DNA of 8,620 nucleotides, from NCBI GenBank assembly GCA_026985515.1, contig JALSQH010000034.1, positions 1 to 8,620 of the forward strand, read 5' to 3'. Positions 1-7,886 of this stretch are shown in pieces. Position numbers and translations under genes: made by a program. A model generated the notes under the pieces. It made no database searches, had not been told where the DNA came from, and was given only the letters and a program-made list of their open reading frames with translations. This DNA is from a bacterium (GTDB lineage: Bacteria; JALSQH01). Numbering within the stretch: position 1 is the stretch's first letter; every line of letters begins with the position of its first letter.

Positions 1-384
1 ATGAGATGGAGTAAGATAGAAGACAGAAGGGGAAAAATCTTTTTCCTGACCCAGATTCCCGAAACCAATTTTTCAGGCAATACTCTGGAAGATCTGATAA
101 AAAAATTCAAAATCACCATGGAAAAAATTGAAGAATATGCTCTTATTAAAAATCTGCACACACCCCTCGTTTACCTGAGTTACGGAGAAAAGATTAAGGT
201 GAATCTACTTATTGGTGAGGTCCTGAAACCAGAACTCATAATGGTAGATGAAACCTACACATCTCTTGACTCCAGGAGTCTTGAATCTCTGTTTCAGTTT
301 GTTACCAGATGGACAGAAGAAGGTTCCAGCGTTATAATAACATCACCAGAACCAGTTGCGGGGAGTTTTTCACTCAATGGGTAA
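1..384 (+). CDS. ECF-type ABC transporter ATP-binding protein, C-terminal part (5' truncated)
   Basis: This is the ATPase subunit of an energy-coupling factor (ECF) importer, which binds and hydrolyses ATP on the cytoplasmic face to drive uptake of a vitamin, metal or similar micronutrient. Counting from base 1, the visible part starts just before the Q-loop (TQIPETNFSGNTLEDL, residues 17-32), which resembles the Q-x-P-E-x-Q-x-F motif typical of EcfA. It continues with an ABC signature LSYGE (59-63), Walker B PELIMVDE (77-84) and D-loop SLD (88-90). Walker A is absent because it lies upstream of the window. The ATG at base 1 is therefore probably internal, since a full domain is about 230-280 residues. 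The switch (H-loop) histidine seems to be a serine (IITSPEP, 113-119). The gene heads the operon seen here and overlaps the next gene. The ABC ATPase call is firm and the ECF type is likely. Confidence 0.85.
   Translation: MRWSKIEDRRGKIFFLTQIPETNFSGNTLEDLIKKFKITMEKIEEYALIKNLHTPLVYLSYGEKIKVNLLIGEVLKPELIMVDETYTSLDSRSLESLFQFVTRWTEEGSSVIITSPEPVAGSFSLNG
360..365 (+). promoter_or_regulatory. Ribosome binding site that sets the start of the S-component gene
   Basis: GGGGAG lies 11 bases before the ATG at 377. No such site precedes the in-frame TTG at 356, so 377 is the preferred start. The site is inside the end of the ATPase gene, which suggests coupled translation. Confidence 0.5.
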
Positions 385-904
385 AAGCATTTCATATGGT
401 GCAATATTCGGGATTTTGATTGCTATGTGGGAGATATTTGCAGGCAATTTTCTTCATCAGTTACAGCTTCCATTTAAGGGAGAAATATTATCCACTTTTG
501 ACATCTTTATATTCAGTTATGTTCTTGCAAAAACAGGGAAAAGAGAAACAATTCTTCTAATCACTGTGGTTGCCCTTGTCATCAGAGCTTTCATCTCCGG
601 CACATTCATTCCCGGTGCAGTCATAGGGCTTGGTGCCACCGGCACTCTCTACTTCGCAGGAAGCTATTTTTCAAGGTTTAAATATTACATTTCTGGACTT
701 CTGGCAGGCTTATGGGCACCATTCTTCTTTGGATATATTCAGTTAAAACTGCTGGGACCCGAAATTCTCCAATCATATAAAATCCTCTTCAGTAAAATAG
801 GCCTGGGAACTTCACCATCAGCCATAATCAATTTCACCCTTTTAACAGGGGCAATTGCAGGTTTAGCAGCTTCACTTACCGGGAAAAAAATGGCAGGAAA
901 ATGA
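377..904 (+). CDS. Small integral membrane protein, probable ECF transporter substrate-binding (S) component
   Basis: The protein has 175 residues from the ATG at 377 (182 if the TTG at 356 is used). It is very hydrophobic, with about five or six predicted membrane helices: roughly residues 6-22, 38-51, 56-75, 80-98, 103-125 and 150-171. Size and topology match ECF S components, the membrane proteins that bind the substrate. Helix 1 carries small-xxx-small spacing (G8, G12, A16), similar to the AxxxA motif by which S components contact EcfT. Position between an ECF-type ATPase and an EcfT-like gene supports the role. It overlaps the ATPase gene by 8 bases and the next gene by ATGA at 901-904. 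I recognise no named S family such as BioY, ThiT, RibU or CbrT, so the substrate is unknown. The membrane-protein call is firm and the S-component role is inferred mainly from context. Confidence 0.65.
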   Translation: MGKSISYGAIFGILIAMWEIFAGNFLHQLQLPFKGEILSTFDIFIFSYVLAKTGKRETILLITVVALVIRAFISGTFIPGAVIGLGATGTLYFAGSYFSRFKYYISGLLAGLWAPFFFGYIQLKLLGPEILQSYKILFSKIGLGTSPSAIINFTLLTGAIAGLAASLTGKKMAGK

Positions 905-1404
905 AACTCCTCACCGGCGTTCTCCTGATAATTTTAAGTTTAATCCACATGGATATCAATTTTCTCTCCATAATCACAGGCTTATCCCTTATTCCTCTCG
1001 TAATTAAAAGAAAAGGAGTGGGATTATCCATCATCCTTCTGAGTTTTCTGCCGGTAGTGGTGCTTCCCACAGAGTATAAAATGCTTCTACCCAATTCATT
1101 AAAGCTTCTCCTGAGATTTCAGGGCTTTTACATGATAGCAAGCTGGACCGGAAATTATGTGTCGGAAAAACTAACACTACCCCTTGCAAAAAAAACACCT
1201 CTGGGATACTCGCTTCTCCTGGCACTTAACATATTCCCCCACATCTCACAATTTGTTAAAGATTCCTTCAATCAAATGAGACTGAGAAAAAGGTGGGTCA
1301 GATTTTTCCCGGGATACCTGTCCTTCCTTCTACTATATCTTTCCCATTATGCTGATGAACTCGGTTATGAAATTGAAAGGGTACTTTCAAGGGAAGAGAA
1401 ATGA
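901..1404 (+). CDS. Compact EcfT-like transmembrane coupling protein
   Basis: This 167-residue membrane protein has hydrophobic helices near residues 4-18, 20-35, 41-55, 66-82, 101-118 and 136-150. The C-terminal layout is that of an ECF T component: a basic cytoplasmic stretch (QMRLRKRWVRFF, 125-136), a helix, then an amphipathic end (ADELGYEIERVLS, 151-163). In EcfT these regions hold two Ala-Arg-Gly motifs on coupling helices that dock on the ATPases. Here the RLRKR segment (127-131) and the IERV segment (158-161) sit at the expected places but lack the canonical motif. It is shorter than usual EcfT proteins, which are about 250 residues. Both ends overlap neighbours by ATGA (901-904 and 1401-1404), so translation is probably coupled. 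A general ECF permease role is likely. The divergence leaves room for a different ABC membrane subunit. Confidence 0.62.
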   Translation: MKLLTGVLLIILSLIHMDINFLSIITGLSLIPLVIKRKGVGLSIILLSFLPVVVLPTEYKMLLPNSLKLLLRFQGFYMIASWTGNYVSEKLTLPLAKKTPLGYSLLLALNIFPHISQFVKDSFNQMRLRKRWVRFFPGYLSFLLLYLSHYADELGYEIERVLSREEK

Positions 1405-1859
1405 TCAGGAAAATAAAAAAAGGTAACATACTTTTTATTTCGGGACCTGTCAACTCTGGCAAAACCACATTTCTGTCAGGCATCATTTCACACGACAATG
1501 AAAAATTTATAGGTTTTCTGGCACCTTCCGGCTATCTCTTCGGGAAAAAAATCTACTACCTGAAAGGAGTTAACATTCCATTTTCTGGAATCATAGCCTC
1601 AAGAGACCCCACCCTGATCCATCCACCAATCTTAAAGTGGAAAAACTTTTTCTTCTCACTTTACCTATTTAACTCTGTCACAAGTTACGTTATTGATAAT
1701 GCAAAGAAATTTCACTACGTGGTTATTGATGAAATAGGACCCCTGGAATATGAAGGTAAAGGATGGAACAATCTTTCTGATTTTGTTGTCAAAAGAAATA
1801 TGAAAGCGATAATTATAACAAGAAATTTCAAAGAGCTAGCAAAAAAACTTGAAATTTGA
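1401..1859 (+). CDS. THEP1-family nucleoside-triphosphatase (P-loop NTPase)
   Basis: A soluble 152-residue P-loop protein. Walker A is GPVNSGKT (residues 15-22). Walker B is VVIDEIGPLE (107-116), and the DEIGPLE form is characteristic of the THEP1/NTPase_1 family. Members from Aquifex and Thermotoga hydrolyse NTPs in vitro, but the cellular role is not settled. The start at 1401 is supported by GGGAAGAG at 1391-1398 and by the ATGA overlap with the EcfT-like gene. Family members are usually about 170-190 residues, and this one ends shortly after the IIITRN strand (137-142), so the C-terminus is somewhat short. No frameshift is evident. As last gene of an ECF-like operon, it may act on the imported compound, a nucleotide derivative, or regulate the transporter; this is inference. 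The family call is firm. Confidence 0.82.
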   Translation: MIRKIKKGNILFISGPVNSGKTTFLSGIISHDNEKFIGFLAPSGYLFGKKIYYLKGVNIPFSGIIASRDPTLIHPPILKWKNFFFSLYLFNSVTSYVIDNAKKFHYVVIDEIGPLEYEGKGWNNLSDFVVKRNMKAIIITRNFKELAKKLEI

Positions 1860-1913: not shown

Positions 1914-1930
1914 CCCCTCCCCCCTCCCCC
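1914..1930 (-). other. G-rich tract on the minus strand just 3' of the TreT-like gene
   Basis: The plus strand has CCCC, CCCCCC and CCCCC runs separated by single T bases. The minus strand, which is the possible 3' end of the trehalose mRNA, therefore reads three G-runs of 5, 6 and 4. Three runs do not make a standard three-tetrad G-quadruplex, though a two-tetrad form is possible. No function is shown. Confidence 0.4.
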
Positions 1931-1965
1931 GGCGGGAAAGCGGCCTGCTTTCCTGCCGTTTTTTT
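1930..1965 (+). terminator. Rho-independent terminator of the ECF operon
   Basis: A 12-bp stem (1930-1941 with 1947-1958, one G-T wobble) closes a 5-base loop (1942-1946) and is followed by seven T bases (1959-1965). It ends + strand transcription about 70 bases after the NTPase gene. The T-tract runs into the stop codon of the convergent minus-strand gene (1964-1966). On the minus strand the hairpin is followed by G-runs, not T, so it is not an obvious terminator in that direction. Confidence 0.85.
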
Positions 1966-3184
1966 ACCCACATCCAAGCAGTTCGGTAAACAGATCCATA
2001 TAATTGCTGAGAAGTCTTGTGATCAGAAACTTTTCTCTAACAAGTTCTTTTCCTCTTTTACCCATCACCTCTGCCATTTCAGGATTTCTCAGCAATTCAA
2101 TAATCCTGCTGGCAAATCCTTCTATATCTGTGGGGTCAAGAAGGAAGCCATTATAGCCATCTTTAATCTGAAGCGGTATACCTCCCACATTGGAAGCAAC
2201 CACAGGCTTGCCCTTCCACAGAGCCTCAGTAACCGTCAATCCAAATCCTTCTCTCAGAGATTTCTGAATGACCACTGCGGCTCTTCTCTGGAGAGCATTT
2301 ACAAGGAAATTGTTCTCAATATTTATCAGCACAAGATCTCCAGACTCAATCAACTTTGAGTATTTTCTTTCTATCCTTCCAAAGATATGCCATCCTTCCG
2401 GGTCATCTGTCGCCATGCTCCCGCAGAGAATCAACCTCACATCAAATTCTTCTTTTACAAGTTTCCAGACCTCAATTACTCCCTCTGGATCCTTCCATTT
2501 GTCAAACCTGGAAACCTGAAGTATAAATGGTTTCTTATGAAGGTCAGGGACAAATTTTTTGAGAAAATTGTCAAACTCCTCTTCCGGGAAATCTCTGTTT
2601 TTTACAGACAATGGATCAATGGCGGGATAGAAAACTTTCTGTTCTATGGGTAGTTCTTTCCTTTTATAATTCTCGTGGGAAACGATCATAACATCATACC
2701 TTAATATCAATGGCTTGAGAAAATCACATATTTCTTCATTGGGATTGGAAAGATCCACATGACATCTCCACACCCAGGGTTGTCTTTTCTTATAAAACTT
2801 TATAAGGGGCAGTGGCTGAGGATCGTGGATAACCACAATATCATGCTGGATGTGAGTGTAAACGGAAAAATTCTCGTTTGTTTGAAAATAAAGGTCCTTT
2901 TTGTGTTCCGTCAGGCGTATTTTGTCACCCTGAAGAGCATTGTGAATCTTTTTGGTTACTCCAAAGAAATCCTCATTGGCGTGAAGGATTCTCCAGCCTG
3001 CATCAATACCAACATCATTCATAAGAGGCACAAGGGTGGTCAGCATTTCAGCAACTCCACCACCCTGAAAAGTGGAGTTAATGTTCAAAATCCTCTTATT
3101 GTAAAGTCTCCTTGCCTTTCTGTAAATTTCCGTAATAACAGCATCGTCAACAATACCCCTGTAATTTTCAAGTGTTATCACCAT
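1964..3184 (-). CDS. treT: GT4 glycosyltransferase, probable trehalose glycosyltransferring synthase (TreT)
   Basis: A 406-residue cytosolic enzyme of GT-B fold. TreT makes trehalose in one step from NDP-glucose and glucose and can run in reverse. Visible motifs are the TreT-like N-terminal loop NINSTFQGGGVAEML (34-48), HDPQ (120-123), WRCHVD (139-144), the donor-binding QVSRFDKWKDP (223-233, with R227 and K232), and the GT4 E-x7-E motif (E312 and E320) followed by GKPVVAS (325-331). Length matches TreT of Thermococcus and Pyrococcus (about 410). The ATG at 3184 follows the stop of the TPS/TPP gene by one base. GAGGT at 3188-3192 is its ribosome binding site, so the two genes form one operon with likely coupled translation. 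It might instead or also act as a partner of the TPS/TPP enzyme. GT4 is certain and TreT is likely. Confidence 0.82.
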   Translation of the reverse strand: MVITLENYRGIVDDAVITEIYRKARRLYNKRILNINSTFQGGGVAEMLTTLVPLMNDVGIDAGWRILHANEDFFGVTKKIHNALQGDKIRLTEHKKDLYFQTNENFSVYTHIQHDIVVIHDPQPLPLIKFYKKRQPWVWRCHVDLSNPNEEICDFLKPLILRYDVMIVSHENYKRKELPIEQKVFYPAIDPLSVKNRDFPEEEFDNFLKKFVPDLHKKPFILQVSRFDKWKDPEGVIEVWKLVKEEFDVRLILCGSMATDDPEGWHIFGRIERKYSKLIESGDLVLINIENNFLVNALQRRAAVVIQKSLREGFGLTVTEALWKGKPVVASNVGGIPLQIKDGYNGFLLDPTDIEGFASRIIELLRNPEMAEVMGKRGKELVREKFLITRLLSNYMDLFTELLGCG

Positions 3185-3185
3185 A

Positions 3186-5369
3186 CTACCTCACTTTTAA
3201 AATTTCTCTGAGAAGATCTCTTACACAGGCAGGTTTTTCAACAAAATATTTGGCATGAGATGGTTTTATTCCCACCTTTATTGAATAGGCAAAATCAGGC
3301 AGAGCTTTAAACACATCTTCGTCAGTTCTGTCATCACCAGCTGCCAGGATAAAATCCCATTTCTCCTCAAGCCACCTTCCAAGGGCTGTTCCCTTATTGA
3401 CACCTGCACTCTTTATTTCAATCACCTTGTGTCCTTCCAGAACAGAAATAGCCTGATTCGCAATATATGGTTTCAATGCAAATTTTAACTCTGCAACTTT
3501 CATTTTACTCTGCTCAGGATCAGCCATCCTGTAATGCCAGGCAAGGGAATAATCCTTCTCCTCGATAAATGTTCCGGGAGTGGCTATCGTGAATTTCTCG
3601 AGCATCTTTCTTATCTCATCTTTCCAGGAAATATCTAGTGGTCCAAATGTTTCCCATTCGCTTCCTCTTCTTTTTATCCAAACTCCATGTTCTGCCACAA
3701 GTGAAATATTGAGATCACCAAACCACTTTTCCAGAAAATCTTTCCCCCTTCCACTTATTACAATAACTTCGGAGCCACTGGTTACTGAAAGAGATTTCAA
3801 AATCTCAATAATCTCATCGTCAGGGACTGCAAGTTCCGGGCTTTTCTGAAGAGGAATCAGTGTTCCATCATAATCAAGAACAAAAAGCCTCTTTGAAGAA
3901 TTTGTGAAATCTTCAATTAACTTTTTAACAACTGCATCTGAAAGTTTCTTTCCCCTCTTTTCAGCCTGCTCCCTTTTGACCATTAGAAGATGATTTATGA
4001 ACTCTTCAGCCCATCTGTTCACATCGTAACTTTTCAACCTCTCCTGCATTCTCGAATTCCTTCTAACAATTTCATCTTCATCAACATTCAGTGCCTCCAT
4101 AATTGCATCGGCAATTGACTTAACATCATAGGGATTTATTAAAATTGCCTCATTCATTTCTTTGGCGGCCCCCGCCATCTCACTCAGGATCAAAACCCCC
4201 GGCTCCTTCTGTTTTACAGCAATGTATTCTTTGGCAACAAGATTCATTCCGTCCCTCAATGGAGTAACAAGAGCAATATCAGCTGAAAGGTAGTAACCGG
4301 CCAGCGTATCCTTATCAAAAGAATGATAATAAAACAATATAGGGGTCCAGTTTCTTGTTGCAAAGGCACCATTTATTTTGCCGACAAGTCCATCCACTTC
4401 TCTTTTGATCTCGGCGTAAAATTCCACATCTTCCCGGGAAGGCACTACAATCAGGATATAGACAATTTTTTCACGATATTCTGGATGATCCCTCAGAAAC
4501 AGTTCAAATCCCCTGAGTCTGTTTACAATCCCCTTTGTGTAATCAAGACGATCAACAGACAGCATTATTTTCATTCCAGGATACTGGGATCTGAGTTCGT
4601 TTACTATGTTCCTGACATTTTCTTTTTTTCCCTTAGATGACCATTTTTCATAATCTATACTGATCGGAAAAGCTTCCACTTTAATCGATCTGCCATCCAC
4701 TATATAGAAGAGCTCATTTTCCATACCAAGAATTTTAAGAACGCTATTTAAGAAGTAGTTTCCATACTCATATGTGTGGAAGCCAATCAGGTCAGACCCG
4801 ATCAATCCCTCAAGGATCTCTTTCCTCCAGGGAATAATTCTGAACATCTCATACGCTGGAAATGGAATGTGGAGAAAAAAACCTATTGTTGCATCCCTGA
4901 ATTTCTCTCTTATCATACCGGGGACAAGCATTAAATGATAGTCATGAATCCACAGGATATCATTTTCATCCAGTATCCTTTCGATAACCTCTGCATATTT
5001 CCTGTTAACATCAACATAGTTTTTCCAGTGTTCATGGTTGAATTCCGTATACTGAGGAAAATAGTGAAAAAGTGGCCATATCACCTTGTTGCTGAAACCC
5101 TGATAAAACCCCTCAATATTTTTTCTGGAAAGAAGGACAGGATAGCAATTATCACTGTTGAGCCGGTGAACCACCTCTACTATATCATCATTGGTCAACT
5201 CCTCAGAGGCAATTCCTGGCCAGCCAACCCACAGAGTCTCATATCTGGAACTCAGAGAGCTAAGGGCAGTGGCAAGACCACCCGAACTTTTGTGGAAAAG
5301 GAGCTTTTTCCCGCTCTTCTTTACAGTGTATTTGGAACGATTGGATACAATTATTAATCTCTGACTCAC
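3186..5369 (-). CDS. Bifunctional trehalose-6-phosphate synthase/phosphatase (OtsA-OtsB fusion, TPSP)
   Basis: This 727-residue cytosolic enzyme joins two steps: NDP-glucose plus glucose-6-phosphate gives trehalose-6-phosphate, which is then dephosphorylated to trehalose. Residues 3-465 are a GT20 synthase with SNR (9-11), GGL (30-32), HDYHL (142-146), HIPFP (167-171), DRLDYTKG (273-280) and DGMNLVAKE (373-381). After a charged linker, residues 493-725 are a HAD phosphatase with DYDGTL (499-504; nucleophile D499, D501), ISGR (538-541), K659 in NKGTAL, and GDDRTDED (678-685). All expected catalytic motifs of both halves are present. The start is GTG at 5369, because SNR must lie close to the N-terminus and no ATG is near. 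The upstream GGCGGG (5375-5380) is a poor ribosome site. The promoter is at 5402-5430. The TreT-like gene follows after one base. Confidence 0.95.
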
Positions 5370-5401
5370 CTTTGCCCGCCCTGAAAAGAGTGCTCAATTT
5401 A

Positions 5402-5430
5402 ATAATAACTCTTTTTCGCCACATTATCAA
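5402..5430 (-). promoter_or_regulatory. Sigma-70-like promoter of the trehalose operon
   Basis: On the minus strand a -35 box TTGATA (5425-5430) and a -10 box TATTAT (5402-5407) are separated by exactly 17 bases, each matching consensus at five of six positions. Transcription would start near 5395, giving a leader of about 25 bases. The promoter fills the 62-base gap after the upstream gene, so the trehalose genes can be expressed on their own. No operator repeat is evident. Confidence 0.72.
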
Positions 5431-5431
5431 A

Positions 5432-6124
5432 CTAAATTGAATCTAACAACTTGTTAATTCTTACAGCAAGATCAAGTTCAAACAGTGCCACAGTGGGCAA
5501 CAACCAAGATATCCAGTATCTTGGTTTACCGCTCTTATTTTCACCAAAGTATGCAATAGCAAGTCTGCCAAACCCAGCTTCTTTCTCAATCTTTTTTGCT
5601 TCTTTCAGAAAATTACGGATAGAAGAAGGAAGTTCTTCAAAACTATAAGGTTTCCCTTCATCCCCATCTTTTTTGATCAGTTCAACAGCTGTTCCAATGT
5701 TTTTCAGGGACTCAATTATGTTGATCAATTTGTTTTTTTTCAGAAAAGCCATAAGCAAGGTACCAGCAGGCAACCAGAAAATCTCAACATTCTCATCACC
5801 TTCCCTCAACTCTCCCTGAAAATATGCCGTTCCATTAACCATTTCAATATGTGCAAATATTTTTTTGGCTGCCGGCATTTCTTTCAAAATTCTTTTAACC
5901 TCATACTCCACCCCCTCAACATTATATTTTTCACCCTCTTTTCTTGAATCAATTTCTGCAGTGAAAAATGTATCAACACCATTTTTCCTGCCCTCTATTA
6001 GGTCGAGGCCCCATCGTTTGAGAGATTTGAACTTAAATTCTCTCTCCCTTTCAGGCTGCCCGAGAGTTTCAAAGACGAGAGTATTTACAGCCTGGTACTC
6101 TTTCAGATCAGCTATCTTTGACAT
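5432..6124 (-). CDS. Uncharacterised cytosolic protein
   Basis: I do not recognise this 230-residue protein. It is rich in Lys and Glu, with no signal peptide or clear membrane helix. It looks like a mixed alpha/beta protein: beta-like stretches at about 50-60, 69-79, 88-105 and 112-118; helical stretches at 121-151 and 163-184; then a Gly- and aromatic-rich segment ([20 protein letters not shown], 191-210) and a C-terminal helix. No catalytic or metal-binding signature is evident, and no cysteine is present. The ATG at 6124 is well supported: GGAGGT (6130-6135) lies five bases upstream and a promoter lies at 6150-6178. The gene ends (TAG at 5432-5434) just before the trehalose promoter, with no terminator seen between, so read-through into the trehalose genes is possible. 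Clean coding and good signals make it a real gene, but its function is unknown. Confidence 0.8.
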
Positions 6125-6201: not shown

Positions 6202-6954
6202 ATGAATGGGAATGATCTGTTGAGAAAAGCAGCAGAAATCCTTGTTAACTCCAGACACACAACCGTCTTTACCGGAGCAGGTATTTCTGTTGAAAGTGGG
6301 ATCCCGCCCTTTCGTGGTCCTGATGGACTCTGGTCAAAATATGACCCCATATTTCTGGACATTGACTACTTTTACAGGAATCCTGAAAAATCGTGGAAAC
6401 TAATTAAAGAAATCTTTTACGATTTTATGGGAAAGGCACAACCCAATCCTGCCCATTACGCTGTGGCTGAACTTGAAAAAATGGGAATAGTAAAAGCGGT
6501 AATAACACAGAACATTGATAATCTTCATCAGGAGGCAGGATCAAAAATTGTTTATGAATTTCACGGAACAACCCGTTTTCTCACATGTATGAGGTGCGGA
6601 AAAAAATGGGAGTACACTCCGGAACTTCTGGAGAAAATTCCTCCAGTGTGTCCAGATTGCGGAGGTATCCTTAAACCAGATTTTGTCTTCTTTGGTGAAC
6701 CCATACCTGAACCCGCCCATTCAGCTTCATTGAGAGAGGCAGAAATTGCCGATGTGTTTCTTGTGATAGGGACAACGGGTGAAATTTATCCGGCAGCAAT
6801 GATTCCAAAAATTGCGAAAAAGAATGGAGCCCAGATAATTGAAGTCAATGTTTCACCTTCATCTTACACATATGAAATAACAGATATTTTTCTTCAGGGA
6901 AAAGCTGGAGAAATTTTACCGGCACTTGTAGAAGAGGTGAAAAAATTAAAGTGA
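6202..6954 (+). CDS. NAD-dependent protein deacylase of the Sir2 (sirtuin) family
   Basis: A 250-residue sirtuin that removes acetyl or related acyl groups from lysines, consuming NAD+ and releasing nicotinamide and O-acyl-ADP-ribose. The motifs run in the standard order: GAGIS (25-29), ESGIPPFRG (31-39), TQNIDNLH (102-109), catalytic H121 in EFHGT, zinc ligands C129, C132, C150 and C153, PDFVFFGE (159-166), GTTGEIYPAA (190-199) and EVN (214-216). The length is normal. The Tyr-x-x-Arg pair that marks CobB/SIRT5 desuccinylases is not clear: the matching stretch FYDFM (72-76) has Met where Arg is expected, so deacetylation is more likely. The overall look is that of bacterial and archaeal sirtuins such as the Thermotoga enzyme. 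No ribosome site precedes the ATG. The gene overlaps the next one by GTGA (6951-6954), so the two are co-translated. Confidence 0.95.
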   Translation: MNGNDLLRKAAEILVNSRHTTVFTGAGISVESGIPPFRGPDGLWSKYDPIFLDIDYFYRNPEKSWKLIKEIFYDFMGKAQPNPAHYAVAELEKMGIVKAVITQNIDNLHQEAGSKIVYEFHGTTRFLTCMRCGKKWEYTPELLEKIPPVCPDCGGILKPDFVFFGEPIPEPAHSASLREAEIADVFLVIGTTGEIYPAAMIPKIAKKNGAQIIEVNVSPSSYTYEITDIFLQGKAGEILPALVEEVKKLK

Positions 6955-7886
6955 AAAACGCAATTCACCTACCCATAGATGTACTTCCATTACATGACAG
7001 AATCAATCTTCGGCAAAATTACCTCAGAGCAGTTATTGATGGGAGAGAGGAAAAACTTGGGGACCCTTTCATTCCCGTTCTGAGAAGCAAAGGATTTAAT
7101 CTGATAAATATCGAAGTCCCTTCATACCTGACACCATATCCTGAAGAAGAAGATCTTCCACTCATAACTTTTGAAAATTATCTCTCTTTTTTTCGTGAAA
7201 ATGGGTTTTACCACCTTGTGACAGAAATAAAAAAAACAATTCATAAACTGAAAGACCCCTTTATCATCGTGTCTCCCGACCATTCAGTAACTTATGGTGC
7301 CATTGAATCCCTGAAAGATATGGGCATATCACCACTCATCATTATTTTTGACGCTCATCTTGATGTTGTTTCTCCAGATCTTCCTCAGGATAATCTGAAC
7401 GCGGGGAATTTTGTAAAATTCATTTATGAAAGTGATCACAGGGGAATTATTGTTGCAGGCACAGTTGACGACCCGGAAATCAACACAGAGATTTATGATT
7501 CTATCCCCCATGTCATAAGAGAAGAATATCCACGATGGAAGAAGAGATTGAAAGTCATTGATTATACAAGATTTAATGACTATGAGAAAATTTTTAGAGA
7601 AGTCATCAGCCAGTGGGAGGGAGAAGAAATCTACCTCTCAATTGATATAGATGTAGCTTCGGGGGAAGATCTGTGGGGGGTAAGATTCTTTGAAGGACGG
7701 GGTATCTCACCTGAAGGTCTCCTTGAATCCCTCAGGTCAATCAAAAACATGATCGAAAAAATGGATAAGAAAATAGTGGGAATGGATTTCACAGAATGGG
7801 ATCCCCTTCTCATGGCAATTCCGGTAAGGGGGAAAAAGGATAAGACACTACCACTTTTTGAGGAAATAATCAACCTGTTTTTCTGA
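6951..7886 (+). CDS. Arginase/agmatinase-fold (ureohydrolase-like) protein, substrate unknown
   Basis: This 311-residue cytosolic protein is of the ureohydrolase superfamily, Mn-dependent hydrolases that cleave guanidino groups. The metal ligands of the family are present: H111 in PDHS (normally GGDHS), D134, H136 and D138 in DAHLD, and D232 and D234 in SIDID. E282 in DFTEWDP matches the conserved Glu near the C-terminus. Two features are unusual. The usual DP after the DxD ligands is absent (SIDIDVASGEDL), and the His of the NLHG loop, a catalytic residue in arginase, aligns with N150 in NLNAG. It starts at GTG 6951 with GAGGTGA at 6934-6940, and overlaps the sirtuin stop. A terminator follows at 7996-8026. 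Superfamily membership is firm. Arginase, agmatinase or formimidoglutamase activity cannot be chosen and may be changed or lost. Confidence 0.8.
   Translation: MKNAIHLPIDVLPLHDRINLRQNYLRAVIDGREEKLGDPFIPVLRSKGFNLINIEVPSYLTPYPEEEDLPLITFENYLSFFRENGFYHLVTEIKKTIHKLKDPFIIVSPDHSVTYGAIESLKDMGISPLIIIFDAHLDVVSPDLPQDNLNAGNFVKFIYESDHRGIIVAGTVDDPEINTEIYDSIPHVIREEYPRWKKRLKVIDYTRFNDYEKIFREVISQWEGEEIYLSIDIDVASGEDLWGVRFFEGRGISPEGLLESLRSIKNMIEKMDKKIVGMDFTEWDPLLMAIPVRGKKDKTLPLFEEIINLFF

Follow-up and report, generated by a model that had tools for sequence, protein, structure and literature searches.

A TreT-family glycosyltransferase encoded beside a fused trehalose-6-phosphate synthase/phosphatase: a possible bacterial module for trehalose turnover

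Introduction

The TPS/TPP route to trehalose is irreversible owing to its phosphatase. In prokaryotes, trehalose-6-phosphate synthase (TPS) and trehalose-6-phosphate phosphatase (TPP) are found fused in a bifunctional enzyme, TPSP (PRK14501/NF011071), for instance in Cytophaga hutchinsonii and Thermoproteus tenax. The T. tenax operon has the order msc-gt-tpsp, and its glycosyltransferase (TTX_1305), which activates TPSP, is closest to PimA and lacks synthase activity of its own; activation required the fusion of TPS and TPP, and no comparable operon was seen elsewhere by the authors (PMC3634074). The TreT of T. tenax has been treated as a separate, unidirectional pathway (PMC7688234).

In 2006, reports of TreT (GT4, EC 2.4.1.245) were confined to Archaea and Thermotoga, and the enzyme of Thermococcus litoralis is reversible (PMC1769515), its gene being located in the context of ABC importer genes (PMC4158304). 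In Thermotoga maritima treTR is induced by trehalose, which is a growth substrate of this organism (PMC3750489). For another disaccharide, sucrose, it is known that sucrose synthase, which occurs beside SPS/SPP, mainly cleaves in vivo (PMC4390843). Here we describe a bacterial locus in which a fused tpsp is followed by a gene of the TreT family, and examine how widely this pair is conserved and what its two enzymes might do together.

Organisation of the tpsp-treT locus

The analysed window comprises 8,620 nucleotides of contig JALSQH010000034.1. On its minus strand lie tpsp (3186..5369, 727 aa, GTG start), which encodes a fused trehalose-6-phosphate synthase (GT20)/trehalose-6-phosphate phosphatase (HAD), and treT (1964..3184, 406 aa, ATG start), which encodes a GT4 protein of the trehalose glycosyltransferring synthase family. 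Both open reading frames are complete and, as already noted in the first-pass annotation, a single base (3185) separates the stop of the former from the start of the latter. The junction (3182..3192, minus strand) reads GAGG-TAG-T-ATG, with GAGG four bases 5' of the treT ATG and just ahead of the tpsp stop, which suggests a candidate ribosome-binding site for treT and coupled translation of the two genes. A candidate sigma-70-like promoter (TTGATA-17-TATTAT, 10/12 matches) is located 32 bases before the tpsp start (5402..5430, minus strand); it is a weak candidate because the region holds 21 such sites as compared to 10.5 in shuffles, and one promoter serving both genes is plausible. Between treT and a convergent NTPase gene on the plus strand sits a strong terminator-like hairpin (1930..1958, assigned to neither strand) with a 13 bp stem, 8 GC pairs and a T run on the plus strand. 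It is directly adjoined by a C-rich run (CCCCTCCCCCCTCCCCC, within 1914-1958) that is G-quadruplex-like on the minus strand.

A gene for a UPF0128/TIGR00703 protein (5432-6124, minus strand) lies on the same strand 62 bases upstream of tpsp; it was considered as part of the trehalose unit and rejected, as it is absent from the recurring flanking families, and in the locus of the closest relative (L041) its place upstream of tpsp is taken by two minus-strand genes. At the other end (1-1859, plus strand) overlapping genes encode an ABC ATPase fragment at the start of the window, two membrane-like proteins without Pfam match and a THEP1-like protein (NTPase_1); they may form an operon for an ECF-type transporter. 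At 6202-7886 (plus strand), a Sir2 deacylase gene overlaps by 4 bases a divergent gene of the arginase family, the product of which scores below every NCBIfam cut-off.

The TPSP protein carries PF00982 (aa 4-461, 526 bits) and PF02358 (aa 498-709, 173 bits) and exceeds the cut-off of the bifunctional equivalog family NF011071 (987.7 vs 634 bits). The catalytic motifs are intact in its synthase (HDYH 142, DRLDYTKG 273-280, DGMNL 373) as well as its phosphatase domain (DYDGT 499, SGRG 539, GDDRTDED 678). It thus shares the GT20 and HAD phosphatase fusion with all motifs of the known prokaryotic bifunctional enzymes, and differs from them in that its gene is followed by treT.

The partner glycosyltransferase belongs to the TreT family

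Two domains, PF21269 (TreT_GT1, 190.9 bits, cut-off 27) and PF00534 (107.5 bits), were identified in the GT4 protein, whose closest solved structures are the TreTs of Pyrococcus horikoshii (2x6q, E 4.8e-104) and T. uzoniensis (6zj4, E 8.9e-99). The catalytic residues R226, K231, E312 and E320 are intact and invariant in 115 TreT sequences; the first-pass annotation had correctly judged them intact and placed both glutamates, and was off by one for the other two, given as R227 and K232. Together with D121, Q123, W139, R140 and H142 these residues are the same in the window protein and in both solved TreTs, and all 22 active-site or motif positions that were checked are identical to both and nearly invariant in the 115 family members. 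E312 corresponds to the position at which the entries 2xa2, 2xa9 and 2xmp carry Ala. The protein stays below the cut-off of the NCBIfam equivalog NF041139 (399 vs 775 bits), which by its name (TreT of Thermococcales) covers one archaeal order, and we therefore limit our claim to the TreT family and do not extend it to that equivalog.

Judged by these domains, by full-length similarity and by the catalytic residues it has in common with the TreTs of P. horikoshii, T. uzoniensis, T. litoralis and T. maritima, the window protein is a TreT-family enzyme and presumably an NDP-glucose:glucose 1,1-glucosyltransferase. Unlike the known TreTs, it is encoded together with TPS/TPP and not with an ABC importer, and it belongs to a separate clade of the tree with clade-specific R65, K95, F106, Q135 and C254; there it groups with the protein of locus L041, most of the members around them being TPSP-linked, and the two solved TreTs fall elsewhere. 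We agree with the earlier suggestion that one unit encodes both enzymes and that each of them appears to be active. The predicted structure of TreT has a mean pLDDT of 69, with values under 50 over large parts of the N-terminal domain, so we draw no structural argument from the model.

The positively charged R65 and K95 are conserved in the TPSP-linked clade; at these positions P. horikoshii TreT has F and M, and T. uzoniensis TreT has K and Y. The two residues raise the question of whether glucose-6-phosphate, a phosphorylated sugar, might be the acceptor of the paired GT4 enzyme, as it is for the GT4-type TPS Saci_1249 of Sulfolobus acidocaldarius, which sets a precedent for a TPS of this family (PMC7688234). 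We consider this very unlikely, since the 22 active-site and motif positions equal those of both solved TreTs, the paired TPSP already performs the reaction, and the location of R65 and K95 is uncertain given the low model confidence there. Furthermore, the two residues characterise the clade, and their association with linkage is confounded by common descent: 56 of 61 linked as compared to 26 of 49 unlinked TreTs carry both, and we rejected them as a signature of TPSP linkage upon independent contrasts (median p 1). In ten TreTs of Methanomicrobiales without TPSP nearby the two residues are replaced (N/E, K/E, D/E); the single linked Methanoculleus (L084) retains them.

Conservation of the pair across phyla

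A search for the paired TreT in species-representative genomes yielded 80 named loci. TreT in 47 of these directly follows TPSP on the same strand, mostly with gaps between -20 and +20; where a contig ends there, it is the 3' end of TPSP that is seen. In another seven loci TPSP lies upstream at a distance of up to a few kb, and in one the order is reversed. The pairing is carried by a few archaea and by dozens of distantly related bacteria; record titles include WOR-3, Hydrothermota, Omnitrophota, Zixibacteria, KSB1, Cloacimonadota, Neomarinimicrobiota, Ignavibacteria, Bacteroidetes, Aminicenantes, Deltaproteobacteria, Planctomycetes, Actinomycetes, Sigynarchaeota and one Methanoculleus. Most flanking gene families of 45 pairs appear once and the commonest appears in 4/53; as flanking genes almost never recur, the TPS/TPP-TreT pair itself represents the conserved unit.

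We also scored 386 genomes, a second sample spanning more than 250 families, for TreT and TPS. Of these, 90 encode TreT and 114 encode TPS, with 76 encoding both (Fisher p about 5e-37); in the other 14 genomes with TreT, no TPS hit passed the threshold. TreT and TPS lie within 5 kb of each other in 57 of the 76 genomes having both, in the arrangements TPS>TreT (33), TreT>TPS (20), convergent (3) and divergent (1), and the linkage is found with fused as well as unfused TPS/TPP. Co-occurrence and linkage of the genes are observed directly, and the check proposed in the first-pass annotation, a neighbourhood conserved in relatives, came out in favour of the pair. We found no description of a TPS/TPP-TreT operon or linkage in the open-access literature; both enzymes are already known and, judged against that literature, their phylum-wide linkage is the new part. 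The scattered phyla of the pair are consistent with lateral transfer, and one might suppose that two general stress genes were transferred jointly, or are chance neighbours, with no functional link. Given the strength of the co-occurrence, the linkage in four arrangements and the non-recurring flanks, this appears extremely improbable.

None of the loci examined showed a fusion of TPS and TreT genes. Four long TreT open reading frames (G138, G076, G085, G101) were inspected as candidates and rejected, their N-terminal extensions having no Pfam match and not being TPS. At L152:913-3141 and L151:4291-8304 TreT is extended N-terminally by about 325 and 930 aa that match no known family; at the former, tpsp directly follows the gene. 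Two genomes carry a four-gene operon of an N-terminally extended TPS, TPP, a 223-aa gene and TreT (L155:1537-6837, L156:944-5867); the 223-aa gene in L155 encodes a DUF5752 protein (232 bits), a candidate for an extra partner in the trehalose unit.

Comparison with the T. tenax complex

The closest described arrangement is that of T. tenax, where, as in the window, a GT4-family protein is encoded next to a fused TPSP. However, the partner in T. tenax is PimA-like, and that of the window is a TreT. The two are set apart by the published description of TTX_1305, owing to which we reject direct homology (PMC3634074); no PimA was found among the 28 PDB hits of the window protein at E<0.001. Gene order differs as well (msc-gt-tpsp vs tpsp-treT), no msc is present within the window, and MscS occurs in 2/53 upstream flanks of pairs elsewhere. 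The partnership of T. tenax is therefore not the one present here, contrary to the first-pass proposal, and the T. tenax precedent for complex formation between TPSP and TreT is one of analogy.

By that analogy TreT might still bind TPSP and switch on or modulate its synthase domain, with or without catalysis of its own. Apart from the precedent of GT-dependent TPSP activation (PMC3634074), such a complex would be in line with the close spacing of the genes, which overlap or nearly overlap (gaps between -20 and +20) in 36 of 46 pairs, the window's included, and with the correlation between TreT and TPSP trees (Mantel r 0.65, 0/2000 permutations; 11 strong splits shared). But shared inheritance alone predicts correlated trees, and the agreement fits joint inheritance without showing contact. 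In addition to the PimA-like nature of the T. tenax protein, the absence of TPS-TreT fusions among the loci examined and the occurrence of convergent, divergent and reversed arrangements argue against it, as does linkage with unfused TPS and TPP, to which activation of the T. tenax type, needing the fusion, would not apply. We regard a complex of this kind as unlikely.

Trehalose breakdown and the direction of TreT

No enzymes of GH37, GH65 or GH13 were found in the host genome, absences that are uncertain because this is a 97.6% complete MAG. The only GH15-like protein (L159:355-2664, 769 aa) is divergent, without a PDB relative by sequence, and probably exported, judging by a signal-like N-terminal stretch and a hydrophobic segment at the C terminus. 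One ROK kinase is encoded. Across genomes, strong GH37/GH65/GH15 hits are rarer where TreT is linked (8/42) than in TPS-only genomes (22/38), also when counted by family (7/37 vs 18/31, p 0.001) and, less markedly, with weak GH15 hits included (14/42 vs 25/38, p 0.007), a contrast that is suggestive only, as E-value cut-offs were chosen after the hits had been seen and phyla differ between the groups, so that phylum composition may be its source. It is driven largely by GH15, a family that includes glucoamylases, and GH37 alone shows no difference; trehalases are present in some linked genomes too (G054, G045). The search for TreS (GH13) covered the host genome only.

Within the clade of the window protein, two TreTs unlinked to TPSP point to a role in trehalose use: one lies beside genes for the binding protein, permease and ATPase of a sugar ABC importer (L055:3-5491), the other beside genes for a sugar-importer binding protein and permease (L042:69-4306). 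They recall, the latter in part, the treT genes of T. litoralis and T. maritima with their trehalose ABC importer, where TreT is a trehalose-using enzyme; in the window organism, however, trehalose would be made intracellularly and not imported.

Four indirect lines, namely the apparent lack of GH37, GH65 and GH13 in the host, the trehalase contrast, the importer-linked clade members and the induction in T. maritima, favour cleavage by TreT. Against a salvage reading stand the unidirectional TreT of T. tenax and the deletion mutants of S. acidocaldarius, in which TreT contributes to trehalose synthesis and to the pool, also under salt stress (PMC7688234). TreT could accordingly be a second synthetic route that runs forward in vivo from free glucose and ADP-, GDP- or UDP-glucose, the operon then using either glucose or glucose-6-phosphate. 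The 14 TreT genomes without TPS and the observation that trehalose as main solute often goes with several routes (PMC7688234) would also agree with it. Yet few sources of free glucose are apparent, TreT is apparently the sole intracellular candidate for breakdown of the pool in this host, and importer-adjacent TreTs and the T. maritima induction point the other way. We consider a forward-running TreT a serious possibility, though not a probable one.

A model for trehalose turnover

The reading we prefer, and to which we give about an even chance, is that TPSP builds a single trehalose pool and that TreT is its reversible, mainly cleaving salvage arm. The tpsp-treT operon would then supply two active enzymes sharing this pool: TPSP would convert UDP-glucose and glucose-6-phosphate to trehalose, irreversibly through its phosphatase domain, and TreT would interconvert trehalose and NDP with NDP-glucose and glucose. 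After stress, trehalose would be drained mainly by TreT cleavage, with one glucosyl bond conserved as NDP-glucose, and the released glucose could be phosphorylated by the ROK-family kinase. It is the net direction of TreT and its physiological role that we infer here. The two trehalose routes had initially been called redundant, which is doubtful because TreT of T. litoralis is reversible and the window TreT can be the degrading arm. The same logic of an irreversible phosphate route and a reversible GT4 enzyme acting on the free disaccharide is found in SPS/SPP and sucrose synthase of cyanobacteria and plants (PMC4390843), although the sugar here is trehalose and the analogy is purely functional.

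Most of the genomes found here to encode TreT carry TPS/TPP as well; the genes usually adjoin each other, and many phyla are represented. With a confidence somewhat short of even, we suggest that TPS/TPP-TreT is an undescribed, phylum-spanning turnover module, doing for trehalose what SPS/SPP and sucrose synthase do for sucrose, in which TreT is the standard reclaimer replacing trehalase in many bacteria and the enzymes are possibly associated. If TreT is indeed the cleaving arm, its annotation as a second synthase would be misleading, and many apparently trehalase-less genomes would have an exit from trehalose that conserves one glucosyl bond.
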